This document shows positions 2,333 to 30,366 of a DNA stretch of 50,939 nt, piece after piece; positions within the stretch are counted from its first letter, which is position 1; every line of letters begins with the position of its first letter. Where the stretch lies: contig DATMAT010000025.1 in NCBI GenBank assembly GCA_035559815.1, positions 1-50,939 on the forward strand, given 5' to 3'. The stretch comes from Thermodesulfobacteriota bacterium (GTDB lineage Bacteria; Desulfobacterota_D; UBA1144; Nemesobacterales; CSP1-2). The position numbers and the translations under genes were made by a program. The notes beneath the pieces are model-generated. The model was not told the DNA's origin, did no database searches, and was given only the letters and a program-made list of their open reading frames with translations.

Positions 2333-2672
2333 CCTCTTCGGTAACTATACCTTTCTGCCTGGCGGCAGGAACAAGCTTTTCCCTGACCCTATCGGCCCGC
2401 ACCCTCCATAGATATTTATGTACAGCTTCGATGACTATCTGATCACCGGGAATCCCGGTTTCCCGAGATAATCTGTCCAGTTGTTCCTTAATACCCGGTG
2501 GCAAATCAAGCAGGGTTTTATCCCCGAAATAGTTTTGAATTGCCTGCCTTATGAGATTGCTCTTTTCCACGCCCCTCTCTTTTGCCACCTTCTCCACTTG
2601 TTTTAAGAGTTTTTGTTCTACCCTGATCGTTATGAATTTATTCTTACCCTTTGTCCTGGCCTTTGATGCCAT
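2310..2672 (-). CDS. ribbon-helix-helix (CopG/RHH) antitoxin
   Basis: A 120-residue protein with an N-terminal ribbon-helix-helix at about residues 12-50: a strand KFITIRVEQKLLKQVEKVAKE followed by a GVEKSNLIRQAIQNYF helix. The C-terminal half (LPPGIKEQLDRLSRETGIPGDQIVIEAVHKYL) looks like a second RHH-type segment, making it longer than simple CopG antitoxins. It is followed by a coupled PIN toxin. A Shine-Dalgarno GGAGGG precedes the ATG, and a TGTTACA/TGTAACA palindrome lies just upstream over the predicted -10 box. It probably represses its own operon and neutralises the PIN toxin. Confidence 0.85.
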   Translation of the reverse strand: MASKARTKGKNKFITIRVEQKLLKQVEKVAKERGVEKSNLIRQAIQNYFGDKTLLDLPPGIKEQLDRLSRETGIPGDQIVIEAVHKYLWRVRADRVREKLVPAARQKGIVTEEDVFRRIS

Positions 2673-2688
2673 AGTTATCCCTCCATGA

Positions 2689-2726
2689 TGTTACACAATT
2701 GTAACACATACCATTGCCTGCGTAAA
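2689..2726 (-). promoter_or_regulatory. promoter plus palindromic operator of RHH/PIN module
   Basis: Read on the minus strand: TTTACG (2726-2721), 17-base spacer, TACAAT (2703-2698). A perfect inverted repeat TGTTACA (2689-2695) / TGTAACA (2700-2706) with a 4-base centre covers the -10 box. The Shine-Dalgarno and ATG (2672) follow at once. This is the expected place for an RHH antitoxin dimer to repress its own operon. Confidence 0.65.
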
Positions 2727-2762
2727 CTTCTCGAAGGATCCTAGTCCGGCAAATCAAATTCA

Positions 2763-2797
2763 TGAGGAGGATTTCAAATAGCCTACACACCCCTAAA
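2763..2797. repeat. dispersed repeat, partial copy 3
   Basis: Matches the left part of copy 1 (GAGGRRRATTTCARATAG-like lead followed by CTACACACCCCTAAATCCC) but lacks the CTCGAGAGGGG right part. It lies just beyond the third toxin-antitoxin module, so each module is bordered by a copy. Confidence 0.6.
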
Positions 2798-2911
2798 TCC
2801 CACATCACCGGGAATTCCCCGCTACTCTAAAAGAATTTTTTATTGACAGTAGCCCTTCTCTAATGCGAAAATGGTAATAGAAATTACAAATTCATAGACA
2901 AGGAGGACGAT

Positions 2912-3781
2912 ATGGCAAGAGGAAAATCGGCAAGATCAAAAACCAAGAAAAAAGGAGTCGACAGGAAGAATCCCGGCGGAAACAAGAAGAACGGTTCATT
3001 CAAGTTCGACTATGTTCTTTATGATAAGAAAGACCGCATAGCCCGCGTCACCATCAACCGTCCGGAGGTGCGAAACGCTCTCGACTCAAAAACAAGGGCG
3101 GAGCTGGCCACAGCCATCGAAGACGCATGGATGGACGATGACATAGGAGTGATCGTGCTTACCGGAGCGGGAGACAGGGCATTCTCTGCCGGTGGAGATT
3201 TGTCCTGGATAGTCGACCCCAAGAGAAAGGTGGATGCGGAATACATGCTGGTGCACTACCGGCTGGCCACGGCCATGCGCTCCTGCGGAAAACCGATCAT
3301 AGCCCGGGTAAACGGGTTCTGCATCGGCGGGGGCAACGAGCTTAACATGCTCTGCGACCTGACCATCGCCTCCGAGGATTCCATATTCGGGCAGGCCGGG
3401 CCGCTCGTGGGAAGCTGCCCTATATGGTACGGGCTTCAGGGGCTTCAACACTCCGTCGGCGATAAGAAGGCCCGGGAGATCGTCTATCTCTGTAACCGTT
3501 ACACGGCCAAGGAGGCAGAGCAAATGGGATGGGTGAATAAAGTAGTGCCGAAGGAAAAATTGGACGAGGAAGTCGACGCCTGGTGCAACAGGCTTCTGGA
3601 AATGAGTCCCCAGTCCCTACGGATCGCCAAATTGCAGATTAACTTCGTCTCGGACATGGCTTCTCCTCAGATAACTCACGGACTGGAGCTGGCCAGGTTC
3701 TTCCTTAAATCCCCGCAGATGATCGAGGGGGCAAGTGCGTTTTTGGAGAAGCGGAAGCCGGATTTTTATAAGTACCTTTAA
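2912..3781 (+). CDS. enoyl-CoA hydratase/isomerase family protein, MenB-like
   Basis: A 289-residue crotonase-fold protein. Oxyanion-hole elements are visible at SAGGD (92-96) and IGGGNE (138-143). The CDLTIAS...IFGQAGPLVGS block (148-168), the KKAREI-YLC segment and the final KRKPDF are typical of the 1,4-dihydroxy-2-naphthoyl-CoA synthase (MenB)/BadI branch. However, the MenB GSFD motif reads GSCP (167-170), so the usual Asp is missing and MenB activity is doubtful. An acyl-CoA hydratase or ring hydrolase role is equally possible. The first about 30 residues are an unusual Lys/Arg-rich tail ahead of the fold (start ATG preceded by AAGGAGG). A TTGACA at 2843-2848 may be its -35 box. There is no menaquinone or beta-oxidation neighbour. 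Confidence 0.8.
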   Translation: MARGKSARSKTKKKGVDRKNPGGNKKNGSFKFDYVLYDKKDRIARVTINRPEVRNALDSKTRAELATAIEDAWMDDDIGVIVLTGAGDRAFSAGGDLSWIVDPKRKVDAEYMLVHYRLATAMRSCGKPIIARVNGFCIGGGNELNMLCDLTIASEDSIFGQAGPLVGSCPIWYGLQGLQHSVGDKKAREIVYLCNRYTAKEAEQMGWVNKVVPKEKLDEEVDAWCNRLLEMSPQSLRIAKLQINFVSDMASPQITHGLELARFFLKSPQMIEGASAFLEKRKPDFYKYL

Positions 3782-3849
3782 CTTAAACCTGAAAGGCTCT
3801 GCAATTCAAATCAGGGAGAATCTTAACCTGATTCATCAAGACTCATTGT

Positions 3850-3880
3850 CCCATCCTTCCCGGATTATAGGGAGGATGGG
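3850..3880. repeat. inverted repeat between crotonase and cyclase genes
   Basis: CCCATCCTTCCC (3850-3861) pairs with GGGAGGATGGG (3870-3880) across an 8-base loop with one bulged T. No T-tract follows on either strand, so it is a strong hairpin but not a classic intrinsic terminator. Confidence 0.6.
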
Positions 3881-3966
3881 ATAAAGGGTAATGTTCGAAC
3901 TGGTGATGCAATCTAAGTATCCCATGTCCCACGGGTTTCGGTAAATTCTTTGCATCAGTATAATTA

Positions 3967-6126
3967 ATGCCTAATACCCGGATGAAAGGCACGAGAAAGG
4001 GCACCAGAATTTTCTCATACGTATCACTGGCCATCGGTCTCCTATCCGCTTTAATCGTTATATGCCTTTATATATGGAATGCCGCTTTTCTTAGGGAGAT
4101 TGACCTTCGATATAGCGACTTGCGTTTTAAGATGCGGGGAACAGTGGAACCCAATCCCCAAGTGGCTATAGTAGCCATAGACGAGAAGAGTATCAATGAG
4201 CTAGGAAGATGGCCCTGGTCACGCCACCAGCTGGCCGAACTCTTGAACAGGCTTACGGATTACAGGCCCAGGGTGGTAGCGTTTGACGTATTGTTTTCAG
4301 AGCCGGAATCCATGGATGCAGATGCCGCACTCGGTGAAGCCATGGAGAAAAGCGGAAACGTGGTGCTCGGTTATTTCTTTCGGAAGGATGCTACAGAAAA
4401 ACCCTCTCCCTCATCGCTTAAAGAGCTCGATAACTCCAGCATCAAGCTGACAAAATTTCTGGGCCTGCCTAAAGGAGAGTTTCTAACACAATTTGACTCA
4501 GCAGACCTCAATATAAGCGAAATAGGAGCCCATGCTGGAGGATTCGGGTTTTTCAACGCCTTTCCGGATACGGATGGGGTTGTCCGTCGCGCCCAGATGC
4601 TCATAGAATACAAAGACAAGATTTATCCTTCTCTCAACCTGGAGGGCATTCGCCGTTACCTTGGACAGGACATACTTCTTCAAGTAGCTTCCTACGGCGT
4701 AGAGGAACTCTACGTCGGGCAAGAGCCTATTCCGGTAGACGAAAAAGCACAGTTTCTCATCAACTACTACGGCCCCCATGGCATTTTCCCCATCTATTCG
4801 GCTGTAGACGTCATATCCGGCGAAGTCCCGGAGGATGCCTTGAGGGACAAGCTGGTCTTCGTAGGAGCAACCGAGATAGGCATCTCGGACGTGAAACCCA
4901 CGGCGTTCGACCCGGTGCTTCCGGGCGTGGAAATACATGCTACCGTGGCCGGGAACATACTCGACGGGCGATTCCTCATCAAGAATACCCTTACCAGGGC
5001 ACTGGACCTGGCTTTAATCCTGATTTTACCGATGGTGCTTATATGGCTCCTTATGCGGGTTCAGAAGACATTCATCGCATTCGTCATTTTTGCGGCCGCG
5101 GTGCTCTTTCACACCTTAGTTAATTACCTATTTTTCACTGAGCTCAATTCACTACTCAGCTTTATTTATCCGGGTTTATCGTTAGCCCTTGCCTACGTGC
5201 TCTTCGAGGGTTATCGAAACATCGTTGTGGAAAGGAGGAATCGTTACCTGCGTATGGCCTTCAGCACCTATGTTTCTCCAGAGCTTGTAGCCGGTATATT
5301 GCAAGACCCGGATAAACTTAAACTGGGCGGTGAAAAGAGAAGTATCACGGTCCTGTTCTCAGATATAAGAAACTTCACCTCTTTTTCGGAAAAGATCCCC
5401 CCGGAGACGCTCGTAACCATTCTCAACGAGTATCTGAGCCCCATGACTCAAATTGTCATGAAAGAACGGGGCACACTGGATAAGTACATAGGAGACGCAA
5501 TAATGGCTATCTTCGGAGCCCCCCTCGACGTCCCGGACCATCCGAAGAGAGCATGCCAGGCCGCTATCTACATGCTCGAAAAACTGGAGAAGCTCAACAC
5601 CGAATGGAGCAAAAAAGGCTGGCCCCATATATCCATCGGCATAGGAATAAACACCGGCGAGGCCATCGTTGGGAATATGGGTGCAAACGTCCGGTTCGAC
5701 TACACGGCGATAGGCGACACGGTCAACCTGGCTTCACGACTGGAGGGTCTCAACAAAATTTATGGCACCGAGATAATCCTAACCAAATCAACCTTGGATA
5801 ACATTGAATCCCCCGAACTAGCCTTCTTGGTGAGGGAACTCGACCTGGTACAGGTGAAGGGGAAAGAAAAACCTATCCCCATATTTCAACTCATTGACTT
5901 CTATCCCGGGAACCTCAAGCAGAGAACACTGGTTAAATTCTTCTCCGAGGCCCTTTCTCTCTTCAGAGAGAGGAGCTTCCACAAGGCCCGGGACAGGTTT
6001 GCCGATATTCTGGGAACGTTTCCGGATGACGTACCTTCAAGTGTTTATTTCGAGCGCTGTTCTCAGTACATTACACATCCGCCGCCGGCTGAATGGGAAG
6101 GTATATATATCGCCAAGGAAAAGTAA
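3967..6126 (+). CDS. CHASE2-domain class III adenylate/guanylate cyclase
   Basis: A 719-residue membrane receptor cyclase. Order: TM helix about 17-37; extracytoplasmic CHASE2 sensor about 45-335 (PQVAIVAIDEKSINELGRWPWSR is a CHASE2 hallmark); three closely spaced TM helices about 340-415; cytoplasmic class III cyclase domain about 450-640. The cyclase motifs are FSDIRNF, DKYIGDAIMAIFGAP, NTGEAIVGNMG and GDTVNLASRLEGL, so both metal Asp residues, the purine-selecting Lys and the transition-state Asn/Arg are present. The Lys and the Thr of DYTAIGD favour ATP, i.e. cAMP. A TATAAT lies only two bases upstream of this ATG, so Met6 (3982) may be the real start. It is followed in the same direction by TPR/barrel, FecR and lipoprotein genes. 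Confidence 0.92.
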   Translation: MPNTRMKGTRKGTRIFSYVSLAIGLLSALIVICLYIWNAAFLREIDLRYSDLRFKMRGTVEPNPQVAIVAIDEKSINELGRWPWSRHQLAELLNRLTDYRPRVVAFDVLFSEPESMDADAALGEAMEKSGNVVLGYFFRKDATEKPSPSSLKELDNSSIKLTKFLGLPKGEFLTQFDSADLNISEIGAHAGGFGFFNAFPDTDGVVRRAQMLIEYKDKIYPSLNLEGIRRYLGQDILLQVASYGVEELYVGQEPIPVDEKAQFLINYYGPHGIFPIYSAVDVISGEVPEDALRDKLVFVGATEIGISDVKPTAFDPVLPGVEIHATVAGNILDGRFLIKNTLTRALDLALILILPMVLIWLLMRVQKTFIAFVIFAAAVLFHTLVNYLFFTELNSLLSFIYPGLSLALAYVLFEGYRNIVVERRNRYLRMAFSTYVSPELVAGILQDPDKLKLGGEKRSITVLFSDIRNFTSFSEKIPPETLVTILNEYLSPMTQIVMKERGTLDKYIGDAIMAIFGAPLDVPDHPKRACQAAIYMLEKLEKLNTEWSKKGWPHISIGIGINTGEAIVGNMGANVRFDYTAIGDTVNLASRLEGLNKIYGTEIILTKSTLDNIESPELAFLVRELDLVQVKGKEKPIPIFQLIDFYPGNLKQRTLVKFFSEALSLFRERSFHKARDRFADILGTFPDDVPSSVYFERCSQYITHPPPAEWEGIYIAKEK

Positions 6127-6201
6127 TAGCCATCCAATACGAGCCCTTGAGCGAATGAACTAAATACCGGGGAAGGGCGTTAACCCTAGCGAGAAATCCA
6201 C

Positions 6202-6230
6202 TTGACAACCAATGGTGAAGCTTGTAGAGT
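6202..6230 (+). promoter_or_regulatory. sigma-70-type promoter for the TPR-FecR-lipoprotein operon
   Basis: TTGACA (6202-6207), 17-base spacer, TAGAGT (6225-6230), predicted start near 6237. It is followed by two purine-rich Shine-Dalgarno-like stretches before the TTG start at 6313. This implies the three downstream genes can be transcribed independently of the cyclase. Confidence 0.65.
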
Positions 6231-6312
6231 CAGTCTAAGTTCTGGGAGCGTACTTGTCGGCCCGAATAGGTGTTCAATTCCGGCTGAACTTAGAGGAGGA
6301 TAGAGAGGAGGG

Positions 6313-7815
6313 TTGAGCTACAGAAGGCTGCTTATAACCTGCTTCCTACTAGTTTATTTTACCCACCCCGTATCGGCTGATTTCGAGCTTAAACTCAACC
6401 AGGGCGTTGCCGCTTACCTTAAAAAGGACTACCAGGCAGCGGTAAATTTTTTAAAACTGGCCCTGGAAGAAAACCCGGACAGCGCTACGGCTAATCACAT
6501 ACTGGGCCTTTCCCTGTCAAGACTAGAAAAATATGATGAAGCTATTACCTATCTGGAAAAAACAAAAGAGCTCGACCCCAACATTAGAGGTATATACTTG
6601 GACCTGGGAACCGCCTACCTGAAGGGTGATGACCTTAAGATGGCCGAGAGTGAATTTAAAGAGGCGGTGCGCCAGGAGCCGGAAAACGGTCTTGCCTATT
6701 ACAACCTGGGCTACACCCAGTTCCAACTCGGAAATTTCGAAGAGGCCATTACCGCCCTGGATAAAGCGGCTAATCTTGACCCGGAGCTGGCTACTCAGGC
6801 CCGTTTCTACGCCGGACTAAGCCGCTATAAGCTTACCGATTACCAAGCCTCTATAAGCGATTTTCAGTCTGCGCGCGAGCTAGGGTTGGGAACGGATTTT
6901 GCGATTGCCTCCGAGGAGTACCTGGACTTAATATCCAGACTCAACAAAAAATACTATGGAACGGTTAGCTCGGGTGTTCAGTACGATACAAACGTAGTCC
7001 TCGACCCGGACGGCGTCGAGATTATAAGCGACCAGAGCGCAGCGCGGGCAATCTTCTACTTGAACCTGGGATATAAGCCCTATCTTAAACCGGATGCGGT
7101 TATAGGCGGGGACTACACCGGCTATTTTTCTTTCAATCATGACTTGGAAGACTTCAACGTTCAAAGTCATCTTTTCAGAATTTATGGAGAAAAAACGGTC
7201 TCCGTGCGTAAAAGGCCCACTGCCTTTTACCTGGAATACTTTTATAACATCATCTTCGTGGGCGGCTCTCCGGCCGATAACCTCTTCTCTCAGAGCAACT
7301 CGGTAAGGCCGAAAGTGACCGTGCAATGGTCAAGCCTCACCCAGACCGAGCTTTCTTATCAGTTCAGGTATGACAACTTCGATAATTTCCCGGAGAGAGA
7401 CGCCGCAAATAACAATTTGACCCTGGCTCAGCTATTTCGGCTCTGCGATGGGAAGTTATTCTTGAGGCCGGGAATTAACGTCGCCATAAATAGCGCAAAG
7501 GACATTACCGGCAGGCGCAACTTTGATTATTTCTCGCCGGAAGTCTTTTTAGAAACCGTTTCATTCCTTCCCCATGGGATTACGGTTTTAACCAACACTT
7601 ATTATTTTAATGCAGACTACTACAACGACCCTTTCGACAGAGTGGACAATCAGATCGGGGTGAGGGCCGTGGTTTCAAAGAAGCTGTATAAGGTATTATC
7701 ATTAGACCTGAGCTATCAGTACATCAAAAATTTCTCCAGCAGCGATTTTCCCGGGCCGGAGCCGTTTAAGTATTCAACCAACATATTCTCGGCCGTACTG
7801 AGCGCCAGATTTTAG
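6313..7815 (+). CDS. TPR protein with C-terminal outer-membrane beta-barrel
   Basis: A 500-residue exported protein read from TTG, because the signal peptide (SYRRLLITCFLLVYFTHPVSA) begins there and GAGGAGG sequences precede it. Residues about 25-205 are TPR repeats (AAVNFLKLALEENPDSATANHILGLS-type units, five or six copies). Residues about 213-500 are alternating aromatic/polar strands (VSSGVQYDTNVVL, IFYLNLGYKPYL, VLSARF) ending in Phe, the usual signal for outer-membrane barrel assembly. It is likely a surface barrel with a periplasmic TPR platform. The FecR-domain gene follows 13 bases later. Substrate or partner is unknown; polysaccharide export or surface assembly is one possibility given similar TPR-barrel proteins. 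Confidence 0.8.
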   Translation: MSYRRLLITCFLLVYFTHPVSADFELKLNQGVAAYLKKDYQAAVNFLKLALEENPDSATANHILGLSLSRLEKYDEAITYLEKTKELDPNIRGIYLDLGTAYLKGDDLKMAESEFKEAVRQEPENGLAYYNLGYTQFQLGNFEEAITALDKAANLDPELATQARFYAGLSRYKLTDYQASISDFQSARELGLGTDFAIASEEYLDLISRLNKKYYGTVSSGVQYDTNVVLDPDGVEIISDQSAARAIFYLNLGYKPYLKPDAVIGGDYTGYFSFNHDLEDFNVQSHLFRIYGEKTVSVRKRPTAFYLEYFYNIIFVGGSPADNLFSQSNSVRPKVTVQWSSLTQTELSYQFRYDNFDNFPERDAANNNLTLAQLFRLCDGKLFLRPGINVAINSAKDITGRRNFDYFSPEVFLETVSFLPHGITVLTNTYYFNADYYNDPFDRVDNQIGVRAVVSKKLYKVLSLDLSYQYIKNFSSSDFPGPEPFKYSTNIFSAVLSARF

Positions 7816-7828
7816 GAGCGTAACAAAC

Positions 7829-8638
7829 ATGCGGGATGGACTCTCGAAATTCTGGATTGCTTCGCTGACCATATTCGTGTTAGGCCTTGCCGCCGCTCAT
7901 ACCCATGCCCAGGAGCCCGAGCCAATAGGTATCGTCACCGCAGCCAGGGGACAGGTTACCGTGGTAGGAGAAGATGGTGTGAGCGAGGCGGTTGAGGAAG
8001 GGGCCAGGGTCTATCTTGGGGACAGGTTTGAGACAGGAGAGGACTCCGGGGTAAAAATCCTGTTTAATGACGATACGCTTATATCGTTGGGGGCAAATAC
8101 CACTTATGAAATAAACGAATTCGTCTATACTCCCAATACCAGGAGGTCCTTATCGAACATACTCCGGGGAAAACTGAAAGGCATAATCCAAACCTTTGAA
8201 GGCGAGGAATCTAACGTCGAATTCGCCACCCCTAAAGGGGTCATCGGGATAAAGGGAACCATAGTCTACATAGACGCAGATAGGGGCATATTCTTCGTCC
8301 TCGAGGGCAAGGGTAGGGTAAGAGGGGTTACAGAGGAGGTAGAACTGCTATCCGGAGAATTTACGATCATCGGACCGGATGGGAATCCGTCTCTTCCTAA
8401 GCCCATAACGCCGGAGCTAAGGAAAGAATTGGAAGAAGTGACCCTGGTCCTAGAAGAGGCACCACCCAGGGATTCATTATACAAAGAAGATTACCCGGGG
8501 AAAGAACCCCCTCCGGCAGTTCCGCCTGAGGGTATGGTGACGACTATTGGCGATGTGCCCACAGGCCAGCCGGTCGACCTGCTCCCTGGGGTTAATCCTG
8601 ATGACGAAGCGCCGGTGGACGTTATCATAAACCCGTAG
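7829..8638 (+). CDS. exported FecR-domain protein
   Basis: A 269-residue protein with an N-terminal signal peptide (IASLTIFVLGLAAAHTHA, cleavage near residue 27). A FecR domain follows at about 35-160: a GIVTAARGQVTV strand, RVYLGDRFETGEDSGVKILFNDDTLISLGANT and the ATPKGVIGIKGT segment. Unlike anti-sigma FecR it has no cytoplasmic anti-sigma region or internal TM helix, so it is a free periplasmic sensor or scaffold domain. The C-terminal 100 residues are acidic and Pro-rich. The TPR/barrel gene is 13 bases upstream and the lipoprotein 19 bases downstream. FecR domains of this free type are often found near CHASE2 cyclases, as here. Confidence 0.88.
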   Translation: MRDGLSKFWIASLTIFVLGLAAAHTHAQEPEPIGIVTAARGQVTVVGEDGVSEAVEEGARVYLGDRFETGEDSGVKILFNDDTLISLGANTTYEINEFVYTPNTRRSLSNILRGKLKGIIQTFEGEESNVEFATPKGVIGIKGTIVYIDADRGIFFVLEGKGRVRGVTEEVELLSGEFTIIGPDGNPSLPKPITPELRKELEEVTLVLEEAPPRDSLYKEDYPGKEPPPAVPPEGMVTTIGDVPTGQPVDLLPGVNPDDEAPVDVIINP

Positions 8639-8657
8639 TGATGCTTGGAGATAAGGA

Positions 8658-9704
8658 ATGAGGAAAGACCGCTTGAGACTTCATCTGTTATTATTGTTTC
8701 TGGTTACTGCTATTTCCTGCGGAGGTGGCAGCAGCGGAGGAGGAACTGGTCAAGCCTCGGTCAGGATCGTTATTCAATTCCCGGAAGTAGAATCGAGCGA
8801 GGTGGTATACAAGCAGGTCTCTACCAGGCAGGGTGTCGAGGACATCCGCATAATAACCATTACTATAGAGGATGGATTCCCTACGATAGAGAGAACCTTT
8901 GATGTCACCGACCTTCCCTTAGAGGAGAGGATTTTCGTCCCGGTGGGAAGTGACAGAATAGTCACGGTTAGAGCGAGAGATATAAATGGGCTCCTGATAG
9001 CCATAGGAAGCACAACCATAGACGTCTTCCCCGGAGCAAGCAACACCGCCACTATACAGCTTGAACTGGTAGGAGAGGTCTGCGACGACGGTATAGATAA
9101 TAACGAAGACGGGAATGCGGACTGTGCTGACCCAGATTGCGATGGAGAAAGGTGCGACCCGGAGGATGATTCCTTTGTGTGTGAAAACGGGGAGTGTGTG
9201 ATACCGACACCGTCACCCACCCCCACTCCTCCGCCCAGTGAGTCCTTGTGCTTCGACAATATTGACAACGATGAGGATGAGTTGGTGGATTGTGCCGACC
9301 CTGACTGCGATGGAAGGATCTGCCGGGTCGGGGGCGTTTCCGGAGTATGTGATAATGGAGCGTGCAGGATCATTGATTTAGTCCCTTCGATCGACGACCT
9401 GTGCGGGGTTGATTTTACAGTTACCAATCAAGGTAATACTACCGCCCCGGCCTCGGTTACACAGGTTGTATTCTTCACCGAGGATGACAGCGGAAACCCT
9501 GGCACCGCTACAGCCAATATAGCCACACCTTCTTTATCCCCGGGCCAATCGGTCAACCTTAACGCCGATATTGGGACCACTGTTCCCTCCGGCTCTTTCT
9601 GCTTCATTCCGAATTGCGTCTACACAATCGGAGTTGACGCAAACAATCAGATACCGGAATCCGATGAAGGAAACAACACTATAATCGGCCTCTGCCCCGG
9701 ATGA
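8658..9704 (+). CDS. lipoprotein with Cys/Asp-rich repeats and CARDB-like domain
   Basis: A 348-residue predicted lipoprotein: signal peptide with lipobox TAISC (Cys21), then a Gly/Ser linker. Residues about 30-135 form a beta-rich domain. Two copies of a Cys/Asp-rich motif follow: C-DDGIDNNEDGNADCADPDCDG at about 142 and the related C-FDNIDNDEDELVDCADPDCDG at about 198, separated by a PTPSPTPTPPPSES linker. These DxDxDG-like loops look Ca-binding and disulfide-stabilised. The C-terminus (about 238-348) resembles a CARDB adhesion module (FTVTNQGNTTAPASVTQVVFFT, IPESDEGNNT). It ends the operon that starts at 6313 and is probably displayed at the outer membrane. Confidence 0.8.
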   Translation: MRKDRLRLHLLLLFLVTAISCGGGSSGGGTGQASVRIVIQFPEVESSEVVYKQVSTRQGVEDIRIITITIEDGFPTIERTFDVTDLPLEERIFVPVGSDRIVTVRARDINGLLIAIGSTTIDVFPGASNTATIQLELVGEVCDDGIDNNEDGNADCADPDCDGERCDPEDDSFVCENGECVIPTPSPTPTPPPSESLCFDNIDNDEDELVDCADPDCDGRICRVGGVSGVCDNGACRIIDLVPSIDDLCGVDFTVTNQGNTTAPASVTQVVFFTEDDSGNPGTATANIATPSLSPGQSVNLNADIGTTVPSGSFCFIPNCVYTIGVDANNQIPESDEGNNTIIGLCPG

Positions 9705-9792
9705 CGAGGCTAGGAAAAACAGTCGCTTAAATGCATAGCTACTTCTTCTTGAACTCGAGAATTCCCTGCGGCTTGCCACAGTTTACCTTATC

Positions 9793-9864
9793 CATCCTCC
9801 CCCCTGAGGAGGGATTAAGGTGGAGGTTCACCCTCCCCTTCATCCCCTCCCATCAAGGGAGGGG
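9793..9864. repeat. C/G-run inverted repeat element
   Basis: Contains a perfect CCCCTCCC (9844-9851) / GGGAGGGG (9857-9864) hairpin and a second CCTCC/GGAGG hairpin just upstream (about 9796-9812). It is non-coding and lies in the 250-base gap between the lipoprotein and antiporter genes. It looks like one of the scattered repeats of this genome and could also stop transcripts in a factor-dependent way. Confidence 0.6.
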
Positions 9865-9954
9865 AAATGTTGGGATACGCTGCGGATTGCAGGGTGGTTC
9901 ATTAGAGACAAATAAGCTGTATCCTATTAGTCCTCCTAGCTAGAATAAGTAAAC

Positions 9955-11646
9955 ATGGAATCCAGCCTCTTAGTCGATATCGGCCTATCCGTAATCACCG
10001 CCACGCTATTTGCGTACATAGTAAAGATTCTCAAGCAGCCGCTCATACTGGGCTACATTGCCGCCGGTATACTTATTGGCCCCGTAGGGCTGGGGTTGAT
10101 AAAGGACCAGCACTCCATAGAAGTCCTTTCTGAACTCGGCCTTGCCTTCCTGATGTTCATAATCGGGCTGGAAATCGACTTAAAAAAGCTGATAAAAGCC
10201 GGAAAGGTGGTGATTATAGCCGGGCTGGTTAAGGTGGTATTATGCGGGCTCCTGGGGTTCGTCGTGGCCACTTGGCTAGGTTATACCGGCCTGACGGCGG
10301 CCTACGTTGCCGTTATCTTTTGTTTCAGCAGTACACTGGTCACGGTCAAATTACTATCGGATAAAAGCGAACTGGATACGATCGCCGGGAGAATCACCTT
10401 AGGCATTCTTCTCCTAGAAGACGTGATAAGCATATTTGTCCTGGGACTGCAATCCAATATCACCAACCCCTCCATCCTGCCCATATCCTTCTCCCTGGCC
10501 AAAGGCGCGGCGTTGGTGCTGGTTTCAATGCTCGCCACCAGGTATCTTCTTCCATCCCTCTTTAGGTTCGTGGCAAAGTTGCCCGAAGTACTCCTCCTCT
10601 CCACGATCTCCTGGTGTTTTTTGGTATCCTGGCTGGCCATGAAAGCCGGGTTTTCCATAGCCATGGGGGCATTGATAGCCGGGGTGAGCATATCCAATTT
10701 CCCTTATAACCTGGATGTATTGGCCAAGATAAGGGCACTCCGGGATTTTTTCGTAACCCTCTTTTTTGTCTCCCTGGGTATGCAGGTGGTCATAAGCTCT
10801 TCTTCGATAATTACCTCGGCCCTGGTGATATCCTTCTTTGTCATACTGAGCAGTTTCTTCACAATTATCCCCACGCTGAGGCTCCTCCAGTACGGCTATA
10901 GGTTTGGAATCCTATCGGCTATATCGTTAGCCCAGATCAGTGAGTTTGCCCTGGTAATCGTCGCTCTCGGCTATAAACTCGGGCACATATCCCAGGATAT
11001 CGTATCGCTCACGGCAATAGTGCTTATAATTACCGCGACCATATCCACCTACATGACCCTGAATAACCATTCTATATGCGGATTTCTTCTCGAACTCCTC
11101 AAGAGAATGGGAATAAGGGAAAGCGCATCAACAGAAACACCCGGCGCCGACCATAAGGGGAGAAGCCTCGTCCTCCTAGGGTGCCACCGGGTCGGAAGTT
11201 CCCTGGTGGAATCCTTGAAGAAGAGATACGACGACCTTCTGGTAGTGGATTTCAGCCCGGAGGTGGAAGCTAATCTCAAAGCTCAGAATATACCCTTTGT
11301 CTATGCCGATATAAGCCATATGGACACGCTTGAGGAAATAAACATCCGTGAGGCAAAGGTGGTAGTTTCTTCCATCTCCGACGATTTTCTGAGAGGAACC
11401 AGCAATATCCGGCTTCTTCGGCATATAAAGAGCTTGAACCCCGAGGCCAGGGTGATTGTCACTGCGGAAACGATCAAAAACGCTATCGAGATGTATAAGG
11501 AAGGGGCGGATTATGTACTAATCCCCAGGATATTATCGGCGAACTACCTCACCGAGATCATAGACATAGCCATTAGCGGAAGAATGGACGAGCTCAAAAA
11601 ACGCGAGCTCGAGGAATTAGAAAATAGAAGAGAGGTTCTTGATTGA
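9955..11646 (+). CDS. KefB-type monovalent cation:proton antiporter with TrkA-N domain
   Basis: A 563-residue CPA2 antiporter. Residues about 1-385 contain a dozen or so hydrophobic helices with the family motifs GYIAAGILIGP, LGLAFLMFIIGLEID, FSSTLVTVKLLSD and ALVIVALGYKLG. Residues about 400-530 form a cytoplasmic Rossmann (TrkA-N/RCK) domain (SLVLLGCHRVGSSLVESL, with a Cys where GxGxxG usually has Gly) that would bind NAD(H) or another nucleotide. It exchanges K+ or Na+ for protons. A TAGAAT hexamer ends 8 bases before the ATG and no Shine-Dalgarno is visible, so translation may be near-leaderless. A weak terminator follows the stop. Confidence 0.92.
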   Translation: MESSLLVDIGLSVITATLFAYIVKILKQPLILGYIAAGILIGPVGLGLIKDQHSIEVLSELGLAFLMFIIGLEIDLKKLIKAGKVVIIAGLVKVVLCGLLGFVVATWLGYTGLTAAYVAVIFCFSSTLVTVKLLSDKSELDTIAGRITLGILLLEDVISIFVLGLQSNITNPSILPISFSLAKGAALVLVSMLATRYLLPSLFRFVAKLPEVLLLSTISWCFLVSWLAMKAGFSIAMGALIAGVSISNFPYNLDVLAKIRALRDFFVTLFFVSLGMQVVISSSSIITSALVISFFVILSSFFTIIPTLRLLQYGYRFGILSAISLAQISEFALVIVALGYKLGHISQDIVSLTAIVLIITATISTYMTLNNHSICGFLLELLKRMGIRESASTETPGADHKGRSLVLLGCHRVGSSLVESLKKRYDDLLVVDFSPEVEANLKAQNIPFVYADISHMDTLEEINIREAKVVVSSISDDFLRGTSNIRLLRHIKSLNPEARVIVTAETIKNAIEMYKEGADYVLIPRILSANYLTEIIDIAISGRMDELKKRELEELENRREVLD

Positions 11647-16228: not shown

Positions 16229-19200
16229 TTAAGATTCAAAGCTTAGTGGAAAGTAAGCTCTAATCATGGTTCCCTTATTTGGCTTTGTCTTGATCTCAAT
16301 CCTACCGCCGACAAGCTGGACACGCTCTTGCATACTGAGCAGGCCGAAACTCAAGCCGCGAGCCATCCTTTCCTGCACCGCATCCAGGTCAAACCCTATT
16401 CCGTCGTCGCGAATCACCAGTTCGAGCATGCTATCATGCTGCCTTAGCTCTACCGATACCCTCTTTGCATTTGCGTGGCGTAAAACATTAGTCAACGCCT
16501 CCTGCGCGGTGCGAAAGCAAACAGTCTCAAGATTCGGCTCAAAACGCATGTTTTCCGGGCTGGCGTTAAATTCCCCCACAAACCCTCCCAACTGCGCCTG
16601 CTGATTTATATACCACCGCAAGGTAGCGACCAGCCCCAGGTCATCCAGCATCGAGGGCCTTAAATTCAGCGACAAATCCCGAACCTGTCTTAAAGCCTTA
16701 TCAACCACCGACATGCTCTCCTTCAGGTGGGTTATGTAGGAATCATTCTCCCCGAGACCTCGCAAAGCCTGCAAGTGAATCTTCACCACCGTCAGCACCT
16801 GGCCTATTTCGTCGTGCAATTCTTTAGCTAGAAAACGGCGTTCGATCTCCTGTACACTCATCAAGCGATGGGACAGACTCTGCAGTTGCCGGGCATAATT
16901 ATTCAGTCTCTCCTCCGCATTCTTTCTTTCGGTAATATCGATACATGAACCCATAAATCCAACAAACCTGCCGTCTGGAAGAAACCGGGGCACACCCTTA
17001 TCTAAGACCCACCGGTATTCCCCATCAAACCGCTTCAAACGGTATTCCATCTCAAATTCCTGACGGGCGTTAAAAGCAGCAAAATAGGTGTCTAAACACC
17101 GTTCTTGGTCATCGGGGTGCAAATTCTCAGCCCAACTACTGCCCAGTTCCTGCTCCAAAGTCCTTCCGGTAAACTCCAGCCAGCCCTTGTTGACGTAACT
17201 CCAGAGCTTATCGACCCCCGACATCCATATCATAACTGGAGCTGCATCGGCCATGCTTCTGAATCTTTTCTCGCTTTCCCTGAGCGCCTCTGCCTTCTGA
17301 GCATTATTGATCGCTATCTCTATTTGTTGCGCTATGATTTCGAGCAACTTTAGCTCTTCCTTTCGAAATGCATTCTTCTTCAGGGAATTAATATTTATAA
17401 CCCCTACCGTCTCGTCCTGGAACCTAATGGGCATGGCCGCATAACTTTTTGTTCCGAGGTCCCTTCCTGCTTGACCGATAATCGTATCTTGGTCTGTATC
17501 TGCACAATATATTGGCTTGCCTTCTATTATCGTTTTCCATGTAAAGCCTTTCGGATAAGGTATTCTTCTTAAACGTTCGACAAACCAGCCGGGGTAACCC
17601 CGGTAAGCTCTCATGACAGCTTCCTCTTCCTCTACCAAGTAGATACCGACATTGTCTATTCCCTCTATTTCTTCACTCATAGCCTCGACGGCATTTTCCA
17701 GGACGTCTTGTAAGTCGATGGATTGATGCACTGCCCGGGTCACACTGCCGACTACAGGCTCATAACGATTCTTTCTGGATAATTCCCGGTATTGCTCCGT
17801 CTTTGCTATGGCTATAGCGATCTGGTTACCAACGGCGGAAAGTAAACCTATCTCCTTTTCATTAAATTTATGCTCCTTATACGCAGCAAACCAAATAACC
17901 CCTATGACTTTTTCTTTGAGAAATATAGGTATGCCCAAGCTGCCACGGAGTCCCAGGTCTCTACCGGCCGGCCCGGTATCCGGGTCCTTTTGGGCATCCT
18001 CGATATTAATTACCCTGCCGGCATTAATAGCCTTCCAGGTTAATCCTTTAGGATAGGGAATTCTTCCCGCTCTTCTTATATAATCCTCGGGAAGATTTAC
18101 ATGAGCTTGAAGCACTGCTTCATCTTTTTCTTCGTCTATCACATAAACCATCACCGCGTCCACATTTTCTAGCTCGAGGATTTTATTCAAGGCAACCCGG
18201 TAAATCTGCTGAAGGTCAAATGACTGGTTTATGGCTTGAGTAATGGCGTTTACTACTTCCAAGTCCTTGTTTCTTTCATTTAACCTTTCATTCAAGGCTT
18301 TCAGTTCCTTGGCCTGCTTCGCACGGGTCAAAGCCACTCCGATTTGCTTTGTCACAGCCTCCATTAACTTTATGTCTTCTTCATCGAAGGCATGTTTTTG
18401 CAGAGAATTTATATTCACACAACCGATAGTTTTATCCCCAAAAAAGATAGGCGTGGATAAATAGCTTTTCGTGCCAACCTGTTTGCCTGCCGGTCCGATG
18501 ATTGTGTCCCGTTCTACGTCGCCGCAATAAAGAGCCTTTCCTTCTAATATCGCCTTCCAGGTATAGCCCTTAGGATAGGGGATTCTCCCCGTCTGTTCTA
18601 CAAACCAATCTGGAAAACCTCTATGGGCCTTCAAAACCGCCGTCGGTGGACCTTGAGCCGAGGTCACCAGGTTTAACCGGGGGAAGGAAGTTGAATCCCA
18701 CCACTCTCCTTCGACCAGATAAATACCGATATGGCTGGCCTGTCTTATGTTCTTGATCATGGACTCTACGGCGTTTTCCAGAACCTCTTGAAGATTAATG
18801 GATTTATGTACAGCCTGGGTTACGTGGCTCATTATCGACTCGTAACGGTTCCTCTTGGAAATATAGTCCAGGCTTTTTTTTAATTCTTCTTCAACTTTGA
18901 CCCGGTTTGAGATTTCTACACGTAAAGCCTCGTTGGTTTTTAGAAGCTGGCTCGTTCGTTCTTTAACCCTTATCTCTAGCTCATCCAAGGCTTTATCGAG
19001 CTTTTCCTTGGACTGCCTTTGTTCGGTAATATCGAGTATTGCAATTCTAAAATGAACGAAATTCCCCTCAGAATTAAATACGGCCACGCTGTCTAACCTG
19101 GAATAAAAAGTGGCTCCGTCATTACGGAGCATCTGCAATTCACAAGACTCTCGAGTATTTGTCTTGAGGAGCCTTTTTCGATAACTGTAAAAAACGTCGT

Positions 19201-19597
19201 GATTTTTATGGGCAATATATCGAGTAAACCGCTTCCCTATCAAAAATTGTTTCTCGGCTCTAAGCAACTCCGCACCGGCTAGATTGACATCTAAAATAAT
19301 TGTCCTCGCATTCAAGGTAAAATATCCGACCGGGGCAAAATTGTATAAGTCAAGGTACTTGTTGCAGGATTCCTCAAGCTCCAGTTGTATTCTGCGAAGC
19401 TCTTCGTTTTGTATCTCCAGCTCAGCTTGATACACCCTCAGTTCATGGATTAAGCTGGAGAGGTCGGCCTTAGAAAAATCATCTACCTTTGCTGGCTCAT
19501 AGTCTAATAATCTCGGGGCGCGTCTGCGCAAGACTTCACCAGCCTCACTCTGCAGGAGACCCTTTTTCCCCTGGGATCGTTTGTATTTCTTCTCCAT
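16229..19597 (-). CDS. NarL-partner sensor kinase with PAS and three GAF domains
   Basis: A 1122-residue predicted soluble kinase (no TM helix seen). N-terminal coiled-coil 45-75; PAS about 77-205; coiled-coil; three GAF domains at about 245-430, 445-620 and 630-805; a second PAS about 815-920; HisKA_3 dimerisation domain with the phospho-His in ELHDEIGQ (His928); HATPase about 1020-1118 (DDGIGFD, GLLSMQERV). GAF1 and GAF3 carry the signature RIPYPKG-TWK...YC-D and GAF2 a Cys-less variant. GAF1 has an about 20-residue loop insertion (SFPRLNLVTSAQGPP region). The paired regulator is 24 bases downstream. Ligands are unknown; multiple GAFs suggest small-molecule or redox input. Confidence 0.93.
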   Translation of the reverse strand: MEKKYKRSQGKKGLLQSEAGEVLRRRAPRLLDYEPAKVDDFSKADLSSLIHELRVYQAELEIQNEELRRIQLELEESCNKYLDLYNFAPVGYFTLNARTIILDVNLAGAELLRAEKQFLIGKRFTRYIAHKNHDVFYSYRKRLLKTNTRESCELQMLRNDGATFYSRLDSVAVFNSEGNFVHFRIAILDITEQRQSKEKLDKALDELEIRVKERTSQLLKTNEALRVEISNRVKVEEELKKSLDYISKRNRYESIMSHVTQAVHKSINLQEVLENAVESMIKNIRQASHIGIYLVEGEWWDSTSFPRLNLVTSAQGPPTAVLKAHRGFPDWFVEQTGRIPYPKGYTWKAILEGKALYCGDVERDTIIGPAGKQVGTKSYLSTPIFFGDKTIGCVNINSLQKHAFDEEDIKLMEAVTKQIGVALTRAKQAKELKALNERLNERNKDLEVVNAITQAINQSFDLQQIYRVALNKILELENVDAVMVYVIDEEKDEAVLQAHVNLPEDYIRRAGRIPYPKGLTWKAINAGRVINIEDAQKDPDTGPAGRDLGLRGSLGIPIFLKEKVIGVIWFAAYKEHKFNEKEIGLLSAVGNQIAIAIAKTEQYRELSRKNRYEPVVGSVTRAVHQSIDLQDVLENAVEAMSEEIEGIDNVGIYLVEEEEAVMRAYRGYPGWFVERLRRIPYPKGFTWKTIIEGKPIYCADTDQDTIIGQAGRDLGTKSYAAMPIRFQDETVGVININSLKKNAFRKEELKLLEIIAQQIEIAINNAQKAEALRESEKRFRSMADAAPVMIWMSGVDKLWSYVNKGWLEFTGRTLEQELGSSWAENLHPDDQERCLDTYFAAFNARQEFEMEYRLKRFDGEYRWVLDKGVPRFLPDGRFVGFMGSCIDITERKNAEERLNNYARQLQSLSHRLMSVQEIERRFLAKELHDEIGQVLTVVKIHLQALRGLGENDSYITHLKESMSVVDKALRQVRDLSLNLRPSMLDDLGLVATLRWYINQQAQLGGFVGEFNASPENMRFEPNLETVCFRTAQEALTNVLRHANAKRVSVELRQHDSMLELVIRDDGIGFDLDAVQERMARGLSFGLLSMQERVQLVGGRIEIKTKPNKGTMIRAYFPLSFES

Positions 19598-27186: not shown

Positions 27187-30100
27187 ATGGCTGGATTATA
27201 TAAAGAGCTATTCGATAAGATTTTTCGGGAATCGCTGGATGTGGTCGCCATTGTCGACCCGGCCAGCGGAAACGTAATAAGAATCAACAACGCCGTCCGT
27301 TATAGCCTGGGATACGGCATAGAGGACCTTGTTGGAAAAAACCTCTCTGTGCTTTTCTCTAAAGAAAGCTCGCCGAAAATACAAAACTGGCTTGAAGAAA
27401 CCAAGAACCATGGGCCGGTATTCACAGAAGAAAACCTAATCCGCGCCGATGGCTCAACTTATCCCATGAAATTAACCACCACACTTACACCCTGGGATGA
27501 AGGTGACGCTATCCTGGTAACCTTTCGGGATGTAGTAGGAGAAAGACGAAATGAGGAGGTATTGAGGCGCAGTGAACATCTTCTTGAGAACTCTTTCGAG
27601 CTTATCACCATTCTTGGCCCGGACGGAGCATACCGATACGCCAGTCCTTCATACAAACAGATATCGGGATACGAGCCCGAAGAATTATCAGACCAGGACT
27701 TCTTCCGGTTTATTCACACGGAGGATGTGAGTCGGCTTTGTGCTAGTCTTGACAGTTTGCAAGCAGACCACGGAGTTAACCATACTGCTGAATTTCGCTT
27801 CAAACGTAAGGACGGCTTATGGGCTTACCTTGAATCCCGAATGAAGACCCTTCCCGGTGAATCCGAAGAGGCAATCACAATCATTATTGCCCGTGACCTG
27901 ACCGAACTTAAGCAAGCGGAAAAAGCCTTTTTGGAAAACCTGACACAGCTATCCAAAAAGAACCGCTATGAAACCATAATCAATTCCGTAACCCAAAGCG
28001 TACACCAATCAATAAACCTGCAAGAAGTCCTGGAAAACGCCGCCGACTCCATGAGTAGGAACATACAGGGCGCCGATTTTGTAGCCATTTACCTGGTCGA
28101 AGGAGCAACCCAATCGACCGGAGTTAATCAAGCTCCAGACTCACCACAGGCAGTTTTAAAAGCTTACCGAGGCTATCCCGATTGGTTTATCGAACGGGTA
28201 AGAAGGATACCCTATCCCAAAGACTTTACCTGGAAAACCATAATTAGTGGAGCGCTCAGATACTGTGCGGATGCCGAAACAGATACGGTAATAGGCCCGG
28301 CTGGAAGGGAGGTGGGAACCAAAAGCTACGTATCGATGCCTATACGTTTAAAAAACGAGGTCATCGGCGTGATAAACATAAACTCTTTGGAAAAGAACTC
28401 ATTCGACGAAGAGGAGCTTAAGCTCGTAGAGGGCGTCGCCAGACAGATAGAGGTAGCTATCAAGAATGCTCAACAGGCCGAGGAATTACGTCAATCAGAG
28501 GAGCGTTACCACACCCTATTCGACCAGTCCCCGGTCGGCGTATACATCTTCGACAGAGATTTCACCATAACCCATTGCAATAAAAAAATGGTTCAAATTC
28601 TCCAATCTTCCTACGACAGAATCATAGGTACGGACATGCGAAGGCTATGCGACCACCGTGTCCAAGCAGTATTGGATACGGTCTTAGCGGGAGAAAGCGT
28701 AACATACGAAGGGTCTTACGTAGGAACCACCACGCCGGCCAAACTATGGGTGTCAAAACGGCTCTCTCCGCTCCGGGATTCAAAGGGAAAGGTCATCGGC
28801 GGGATGGCGGTGGTGGAAGACATAACCGAGCGCAAGCGGGCAGAGGAAGAGCTCCTTAAGTCTCAGGCCAAGTATGCTGACCTCTTCGAGAATGCTAACG
28901 ATATGATTTTTACCTTCGACCTTTCCGGCAATCTTACCTCGGCCAATCGCGTGGCCTTCACCACCCTGGGTTACGACCTGGAAGATGTTTCCAAAAGCAA
29001 CTTGTCCGAGATACTCACTCCTGAGGGCTTTAGGTTTGCTCTCGACATGCTCCAAAATGCGATCATACGGAAATCAGACCTGACCGAGTTACAACCCTGG
29101 GAATTAGAGGCGGTCAAGAAAGACGGAAGCAAACTCTCTCTTGAGGTGCGTACCAGGCTCATTTGGGAAGGAGAGAAAATAGTCGGGGTACAGGGCATTG
29201 CCCGGGATGTTACCGAGAGAAAGAAAATGCAAGAAGAAATAGTGAAAGCCCAGAAATTGGAGTCCCTGGGCATTCTTGCCGGCGGTATAGCCCACGATTT
29301 TAATAATCTTCTTACTTCCATTCTGGGTAACATCTCCCTTGCCAAGATGTACGCCAATCCGAACGATAAAGGATACAAGAGACTTTCCGAGGCGGAAAAG
29401 GCCTGTATCAGGACGAGGGATTTAACCCAGCAATTGCTCACGTTTTCCCGGGGTGGAGCACCGGTGAAAAGGGTAGTATCATCACTCGGCGAGATAATTA
29501 AAGACTCGGCCAGCTTCGCGGTAAGCGGGTCAAAGGTCAAATGTGAATTCGTTATAGAAGAAAAGCTATGGCCGGTGGAGGTTGACCAGGGACAGATAAG
29601 TCAGGTTATGAACAACCTGGTAATAAATGCCGACCAGGCTATGCCAAAGGGAGGGGTAATAAAGATAAAAGTAGAGAACGCTGTACTGGAAAAGGATGAA
29701 ACCCCACATCTAATGCCAGGACGCTACGTAAAGATAACTATAGAGGACAGCGGGGTGGGAATACCGGAAGAGCTTTTAACCAGGATCTTTGACCCCTATT
29801 TTACGACGAAGCAAAGGGGGAGCGGTCTTGGGCTTGCCACCGTTTACTCGATAATTAAGAATCACGATGGGTACGTGGGGGTGGAATCAAGATTAGGGGT
29901 GGGAACAAGGTTCAAAGTATATATCCCGGCAAAGGAGGGAGGAGCATCAACCGAGTCAGAAGCTCAGGAATCCCTCAAAAGGGGCAAAGGAAGGGTTTTG
30001 GTAGTCGACGACGTGGATATTGTGAGGGAGACTGCCGGAGAAATACTGTCGCACCTGGGATATGAGGTAGATTATGCCAAGAACGGCAATGAGGTAATCG

Positions 30101-30366
30101 AGAAATACGCCCGGTCGAGAGAAAATGGAAAGCCAATCGATACGGTTATAATTGACTTGAACATACCCGGAGAGATCGGCGGCCAGGAAGCTATCCAGAA
30201 GCTCCTGGACAAATATCCGGGTGTTAAAGCCATAGTATCTACAGGATATTCAAACGACCCGATATTATCCGATTACGGCAAGTATGGATTCAGGGGCGTA
30301 ATCAGCAAGCCATATAAAATAGAGGAGCTAGGCGACATCGTGTACGAAGTAATCAATGGTAATTAA
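27187..30366 (+). CDS. hybrid histidine kinase PAS-PAS-GAF-PAS-PAS-HisKA-HATPase-REC
   Basis: A 1059-residue soluble hybrid kinase. PAS about 8-115 and 125-245; one GAF about 255-435 with the window's signature (RIPYPKDFTWK...YCAD, GTKSYVSMPI) and an inserted loop (ATQSTGVNQAPDSP); PAS about 440-555 and 560-680; HisKA with the phospho-His in LAGGIAHDFNN (His703); HATPase about 805-915 (DSGVGIPEE, GSGLGLATVYSII); C-terminal receiver about 935-1058 with phosphoacceptor Asp990 (VIIDLNIPGEIGG). Both transmitter and receiver look active. No separate response regulator is adjacent; the next gene is convergent. Phosphate probably goes to its own receiver, then to another phosphotransfer protein. Confidence 0.93.
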   Translation: MAGLYKELFDKIFRESLDVVAIVDPASGNVIRINNAVRYSLGYGIEDLVGKNLSVLFSKESSPKIQNWLEETKNHGPVFTEENLIRADGSTYPMKLTTTLTPWDEGDAILVTFRDVVGERRNEEVLRRSEHLLENSFELITILGPDGAYRYASPSYKQISGYEPEELSDQDFFRFIHTEDVSRLCASLDSLQADHGVNHTAEFRFKRKDGLWAYLESRMKTLPGESEEAITIIIARDLTELKQAEKAFLENLTQLSKKNRYETIINSVTQSVHQSINLQEVLENAADSMSRNIQGADFVAIYLVEGATQSTGVNQAPDSPQAVLKAYRGYPDWFIERVRRIPYPKDFTWKTIISGALRYCADAETDTVIGPAGREVGTKSYVSMPIRLKNEVIGVININSLEKNSFDEEELKLVEGVARQIEVAIKNAQQAEELRQSEERYHTLFDQSPVGVYIFDRDFTITHCNKKMVQILQSSYDRIIGTDMRRLCDHRVQAVLDTVLAGESVTYEGSYVGTTTPAKLWVSKRLSPLRDSKGKVIGGMAVVEDITERKRAEEELLKSQAKYADLFENANDMIFTFDLSGNLTSANRVAFTTLGYDLEDVSKSNLSEILTPEGFRFALDMLQNAIIRKSDLTELQPWELEAVKKDGSKLSLEVRTRLIWEGEKIVGVQGIARDVTERKKMQEEIVKAQKLESLGILAGGIAHDFNNLLTSILGNISLAKMYANPNDKGYKRLSEAEKACIRTRDLTQQLLTFSRGGAPVKRVVSSLGEIIKDSASFAVSGSKVKCEFVIEEKLWPVEVDQGQISQVMNNLVINADQAMPKGGVIKIKVENAVLEKDETPHLMPGRYVKITIEDSGVGIPEELLTRIFDPYFTTKQRGSGLGLATVYSIIKNHDGYVGVESRLGVGTRFKVYIPAKEGGASTESEAQESLKRGKGRVLVVDDVDIVRETAGEILSHLGYEVDYAKNGNEVIEKYARSRENGKPIDTVIIDLNIPGEIGGQEAIQKLLDKYPGVKAIVSTGYSNDPILSDYGKYGFRGVISKPYKIEELGDIVYEVINGN

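Follow-up and report, generated by a model that had tools for sequence, protein, structure and literature searches.

A CHASE2 cyclase gene clustered with genes for a TPR protein, a FecR protein and a lipoprotein in a Thermodesulfobacteriota bacterium

In Sinorhizobium meliloti, the response to external uL2 protein requires the outer-membrane protein NsrA together with CyaK and involves CyaK-dependent cAMP signaling (PMC7529298, PMC13001267), with NsrA acting upstream of CyaK, not downstream (PMC7529298). CyaK is SMb20776, encoded on pSymB, and smc02177, a FecR gene adjoining cyaD1, is dispensable for perceiving the signal and is among the targets of cAMP-Clr (PMC5498481). Clusters in the Campylobacterota that combine a CHASE2 cyclase, a phosphodiesterase, a FecR protein and a TPR protein have been proposed to act as a single pathway (mBio 2022, PMC9239204). 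The Burkholderia BiofilmReg operon has a CHASE2 histidine kinase beside a LysM-FecR protein (PMC5192318), and in magnetospirilla an exported Ig and TPR protein is followed by a CHASE2 cyclase (PMC4439547).

The gene cluster and its products

The DNA analyzed here is a stretch of 50,939 nucleotides from a Thermodesulfobacteriota bacterium (contig DATMAT010000025.1; the window). Pfam and NCBIfam searches confirmed the four genes of the original prediction, which lie at the coordinates it gave and are all on the same strand. They encode a CHASE2 cyclase, a protein with TPR and barrel-like regions, a FecR protein devoid of an anti-sigma domain and a lipoprotein, and are designated CYC, TPRB, FECR and LIPO.

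3967..6126, + strand: CYC, CHASE2 receptor with a predicted class III adenylate cyclase domain (CHASE2, PF05226, 1.1e-65; Guanylate_cyc, PF00211, 2.7e-25; alignment to solved cyclases)
6202..6230, + strand: promoter-like TTGACA-17-TAGAGT upstream of TPRB, a candidate (consensus scan and comparison with relatives)
6313..7815, + strand: TPRB, exported TPR domain with a C-terminal barrel-like region and a Phe end (Pfam TPR; barrel profile against shuffled controls; orthologues)
7829..8638, + strand: FECR, signal peptide, FecR domain and acidic Pro-rich tail, no anti-sigma domain (PF04773, 5.9e-8; orthologues)
8658..9704, + strand: LIPO, lipoprotein with a conserved N-terminal domain, two acidic double-disulfide repeats and CARDB (NF033662, PF07705, lipobox)

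An enoyl-CoA hydratase gene flanks the cluster on one side and a sodium/proton exchanger gene on the other. TPRB and FECR are separated by 13 bases and FECR and LIPO by 19 bases, and the 186-base gap between CYC and TPRB contains the promoter-like sequence. A TTGACA or TTGACT box is present in the region matching this gap at all six loci compared, a candidate promoter by sequence. The box suggests that transcription of TPRB, FECR and LIPO is separable from that of CYC, such that the cluster may comprise two transcription units. A CRP-like TGTGA-N6-TCACA site was not seen in the intergenic regions of the cluster. The TPRB leader carries a perfect 9-base inverted repeat, TCTAAGTTC at 6234-6242 and GAACTTAGA at 6286-6294, whose 3′ end lies at the TPRB ribosome-binding site. 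The sole Rfam match, to mir-9168 at 9788-9878, was below threshold and was attributed to chance. Elsewhere in the window, inspection by eye pointed to three long GAF/PAS sensor kinases with similar GAF stretches (16229-19597, 27187-30366 and 42360-45299) and to short toxin-antitoxin-like gene pairs with PIN-like proteins and small partners (10-671, 1310-1771 and 1874-2672).

CYC has four hydrophobic segments, one (19-37) followed by three (345-363, 372-390 and 395-413), a pattern that would place a CHASE2 loop in the periplasm and the cyclase domain in the cytoplasm. With CHASE2 between transmembrane segments and a class III cyclase domain at the C-terminus, it has the architecture of a CHASE2 receptor cyclase. 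The metal-binding residues Asp466 and Asp510, the base-selecting residues Lys506 and Thr580 and the transition-state residues Asn587 and Arg591 are all present, and these catalytic positions agree in alignment with the solved CyaB of Pseudomonas aeruginosa. Given these intact residues, CYC is predicted to be an active adenylate cyclase.

The TPR domain of TPRB occupies approximately residues 30-190 (Pfam, 1.1e-24) and is followed by about 300 residues ending in Phe. Its length, this terminal Phe and its homologues among other TPR-barrel proteins suggest that the C-terminal part forms an outer-membrane barrel. A profile of this part scored 41.8 against a set of proteins from a Desulfovibrionaceae genome, Shinella and Paracoccus, compared to a maximum of 23.8 among 60 shuffled controls; a tblastn search of plasmids returned no homologues of the TPRB barrel. 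AlphaFold2 models built from two-sequence alignments had mean pLDDT values of 48.6 and 48.7 for TPRB and FECR, respectively, and only the TPR part of TPRB was modeled. SlipAM (PF04575) had no match in TPRB and TPR_Slam matched only below its cutoff. Because TPRB has no SlipAM match and its barrel part no usable model, we treat Slam-like export as an alternative explanation rather than as a finding.

FECR begins with a signal peptide and has FecR as its sole domain (33.5 bits against a cutoff of 24). A Fec-type anti-sigma function was rejected for lack of an anti-sigma domain, and no sigma factor gene adjoins the cluster in the window. Below cutoff, FECR resembles the LapA-type retention module and the surface adhesin Lsa33. 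LIPO has the lipobox LVTAISC, which ends in Cys21; its N-terminal half is conserved among relatives and its tail is variable. The repeats that had been proposed for LIPO were borne out in part, as CARDB (32.2 bits, cutoff 22.7) and two stretches of acidic double-disulfide repeats (52 bits, cutoff 41) exceeded their cutoffs; their description as Ca-loop-like was an impression from the sequence. Searches with Pfam and NCBIfam found no cargo-type C-terminal 8-stranded barrel domain in FECR or LIPO.

Linkage in relatives and in other bacteria

We surveyed linkage in 61 genomes comprising the host and its relatives (58 genomes in the set for the window's phylum; a single genome in the G058 survey). 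Close CYC homologues (at least 49% identity) occur in 8 of the 61. FECR homologues with more than 40% identity were found in five genomes representing three families, adjoining CYC every time (Fisher p = 9.4e-6, without correction for kinship). The barrel half of TPRB is confined to the same five genomes, and copies cut by contig ends adjoin CYC in G002 and G006. Among 21 genomes searched, the N-terminal half of LIPO was likewise detected in these five only, with LIPO nearby on the opposite strand in G012. The four-gene set is conserved in order-level relatives, and the linkage persists across families as the flanking genes vary. More distant FECR paralogues (34-35% identity) are located away from CYC on G020:C20 and G012:C11, and there is one weak match in G052. 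The original prediction was to be abandoned if the exported genes occurred without a CHASE2 cyclase in most genomes; within the window's lineage, close homologues of FECR, the TPRB barrel and LIPO are instead kept beside CYC in the relatives searched.

Some of the neighboring genes are consistent with a cyclic nucleotide pathway. CYC and TPRB flank a cyclic-nucleotide-binding protein gene in G012 and G020. A gene for a metallo-beta-lactamase-fold, class-II-phosphodiesterase-like protein abuts CYC in G002 and G006, and another gene of this type is found after FECR in G012, on the opposite strand. Several other features of these loci were recorded. Reading of the sequence placed two further genes, one ECF-sigma-like and the other probably for an anti-sigma factor, directly upstream of the CHASE2 cyclase in G012 and G016 (L064, 4828-6164; L079, 1001-2352). 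On G005:C24 (L063), cyclase and sodium/proton exchanger genes are each broken into two frames (2533-4103 and 8013-10116); since both genes are split, assembly error is likelier than gene decay. The host has a second CHASE2 cyclase (L069, G000:C38, 4714-10248) that is without FecR and is followed by genes for an SH3_3 protein, an M48-peptidase lipoprotein, an MscS-type channel with a cyclic-nucleotide-binding domain and a phosphodiesterase-like protein. This block is conserved, with similar versions in L070, L071 and L073 and a partial one in L072.

Separate genes are also found together in other bacteria. A scan of genome contigs returned one relative, a Desulfovibrionaceae metagenome-assembled genome (L003) in which genes for FecR, a TPR-barrel and a CHASE2 cyclase directly follow one another; its TPR-barrel protein exceeds the SlipAM cutoff (25.6 against 22 bits). 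Genes for a TPR protein, FecR and a CHASE2 cyclase are consecutive on Paracoccus and Shinella plasmids. FecR adjoins or is at most two genes away from CHASE2 in 16 of 18 loci read, both exceptions being cyanobacterial; these 18 loci were the top matches, a non-random sample, and most have no annotated TPR gene. Many alphaproteobacterial CHASE2 loci have FecR and no adjoining TPR-barrel. A search of 72,556 plasmid records with FECR matched 16. In 10 of these, CHASE2 also matches, at a distance of no more than about 3 kb; at three Ensifer loci that were checked, no CHASE2 was present within about 5 kb, and the remaining three are similar Ensifer matches. On Ensifer (L094) and Shinella (L093) plasmids, CHASE2 cyclase-FecR pairs adjoin genes for NHLP-type bacteriocin export and a cyclic-nucleotide-binding protein. 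The FecR proteins of Shinella (L093, 5458-8007) and Paracoccus (L095, 5844-7811) have weak, sub-cutoff TbpB/FHbp-like matches at their C-termini, hinting that they may be type 11 secretion cargo.

Fused forms occur as well. In G008, from the window's order, a single chain combining FecR, TPR and barrel-like parts is followed by a gene for a 251-amino acid protein and then a CHASE2 cyclase. Methylocystis encodes a 1221-amino acid FecR and TPR protein directly 5′ of a CHASE2 cyclase. The pSymB replicon of S. meliloti 1021 has one CHASE2 gene, and since SMb20776 is a pSymB gene, its product should be CyaK. CYC aligns with this cyclase at 33% over 600 residues. The gene that overlaps its start encodes a chain of about 1200 amino acids, in which FecR and TPR are accompanied by a long C-terminal region whose last residue is Phe. 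From its position, we take this fused gene to be, most likely, NsrA. Its barrel part is larger than that of TPRB and has no detectable sequence similarity to it.

Comparison with described systems

In both the window and the presumed NsrA-CyaK locus, FecR and TPR domains are encoded directly beside a CHASE2 cyclase, and neighboring genes specify an outer-membrane protein (predicted in the window) and an inner-membrane CHASE2 adenylate cyclase. In S. meliloti, FecR, TPR and a larger barrel part are in one chain and no lipoprotein was seen, whereas the window distributes FecR and TPR over two genes. By analogy, TPRB, FECR and LIPO look like a split NsrA-type receptor. The arrangement had been put forward as undescribed, but the Campylobacterota clusters already contain three of its four parts, namely a CHASE2 adenylate cyclase together with FecR-domain and TPR proteins, plus a phosphodiesterase (PMC9239204). 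That enzyme is absent from the window's cluster, although a phosphodiesterase-like gene lies beside it in G002, G006 and G012; conversely, a lipoprotein is not mentioned for the Campylobacterota clusters. Burkholderia BiofilmReg shares an exported FecR-domain protein adjoining a CHASE2 receptor but uses a histidine kinase and response regulator, has LysM on the FecR protein and lacks a TPR-barrel. As in FecI-FecR-FecA, a periplasmic FecR domain might relay from the outer membrane; unlike that system, the window's cluster has no anti-sigma domain, sigma factor or TonB-dependent receptor, and its FecR domain would pair with a cyclase at the inner membrane. Finally, Slam or type 11 secretion barrels (PF04575) resemble TPRB in that a TPR domain precedes an outer-membrane barrel (predicted for TPRB) of similar size, near a lipoprotein, and the homologous Desulfovibrionaceae cluster has a SlipAM-positive barrel. 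TPRB itself lacks a SlipAM match, however, and FECR and LIPO lack the C-terminal barrel of such cargo (PMC12282271).

A possible receptor and its alternatives

We favor, with moderate confidence, the interpretation that the cluster encodes a split version of an NsrA-CyaK-type trans-envelope receptor. The barrel of TPRB would be embedded in the outer membrane and its TPR domain would face the periplasm. FECR would serve as a periplasmic linker, and CYC, from the inner membrane, would sense the condition of this assembly through its CHASE2 ectodomain and produce cAMP. LIPO would have an accessory role at the outer membrane, possibly as a subunit that binds a ligand or confers stability. We infer the physical contact, the direction of signaling, the ligand and the role of LIPO in this receptor model. 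It is favored because of the linkage to CYC in five genomes from three families, the cyclic-nucleotide-binding and phosphodiesterase-like neighbors, the recurrence of the FecR, TPR and CHASE2 cyclase genes in Desulfovibrionaceae, Paracoccus and Shinella, the fused FecR-TPR-barrel forms and the NsrA/CyaK genetics. Counting against it are the dispensable smc02177, the dissimilar and larger S. meliloti barrel, the alphaproteobacterial FecR loci that have no TPR-barrel, the promoter-like box and the assignment of NsrA by gene position.

This box, as a promoter-like sequence of the trio's own, would also fit an opposite direction, in which cAMP made by CYC turns on an envelope or surface structure composed of TPRB, FECR and LIPO through a cyclic-nucleotide-binding regulator. 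The dispensability of smc02177 for perception and its being a Clr target (PMC5498481), as well as the sub-cutoff likeness of FECR to the LapA-type module and Lsa33, point the same way. We nevertheless consider this output role unlikely, given that NsrA is required upstream of CyaK rather than downstream (PMC7529298) and that a CRP-like site was not seen in the intergenic regions.

It is quite improbable that TPRB is a Slam-like or type-11-secretion-like exporter bringing LIPO (or FECR) to the surface, with the cyclase sensing or controlling export. The Desulfovibrionaceae protein over the SlipAM cutoff has a barrel related to that of TPRB, a lipoprotein gene lies 3′ in the window, and the TbpB/FHbp-like ends in Paracoccus and Shinella would suit such a role. 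On the other hand, TPRB matches neither SlipAM nor, above cutoff, TPR_Slam, its barrel part gave no usable AlphaFold2 model, and FECR and LIPO do not have the 8-stranded barrel typical of cargo (PMC12282271). In a further, doubtful reading, the cAMP receptor would be layered: a surface lipoprotein bearing acidic disulfide repeats, which a Slam-related TPR barrel delivers or holds, would signal to the CHASE2 cyclase by way of the free FecR protein; if true, an export-type barrel would have been turned into a signaling receptor. That the cyclase and the exported genes are functionally unrelated chance neighbors is very unlikely, because even with the separate promoter-like sequence and the FecR paralogues away from CHASE2 on G020:C20, G012:C11 and at the three Ensifer plasmid loci, the linkage survives changing flanks across families and recurs in Desulfovibrionaceae, Alphaproteobacteria and Campylobacterota (PMC9239204), and gene fusions occur as well.

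The signaling chain that was first proposed is plausible, draws support from gene linkage and fused forms and has a genetic precedent in the S. meliloti path from an outer-membrane protein through a CHASE2 cyclase to cAMP; its particular order, from surface lipoprotein to FecR to CHASE2, did not gain such support. The arrangement is largely described already, and what is new here is the split layout in the window's lineage, the lipoprotein linked to the module and the connection of the split form with the fused one. CHASE2 domains are widespread, and few of the signals they sense are known. Taken together, both forms and the S. meliloti genetics suggest a common role for FecR-TPR-barrel assemblies as the input from the outer membrane to CHASE2 cyclases, and separate genes would allow the barrel, FecR and lipoprotein to be removed or expressed singly, which a fused receptor would not.
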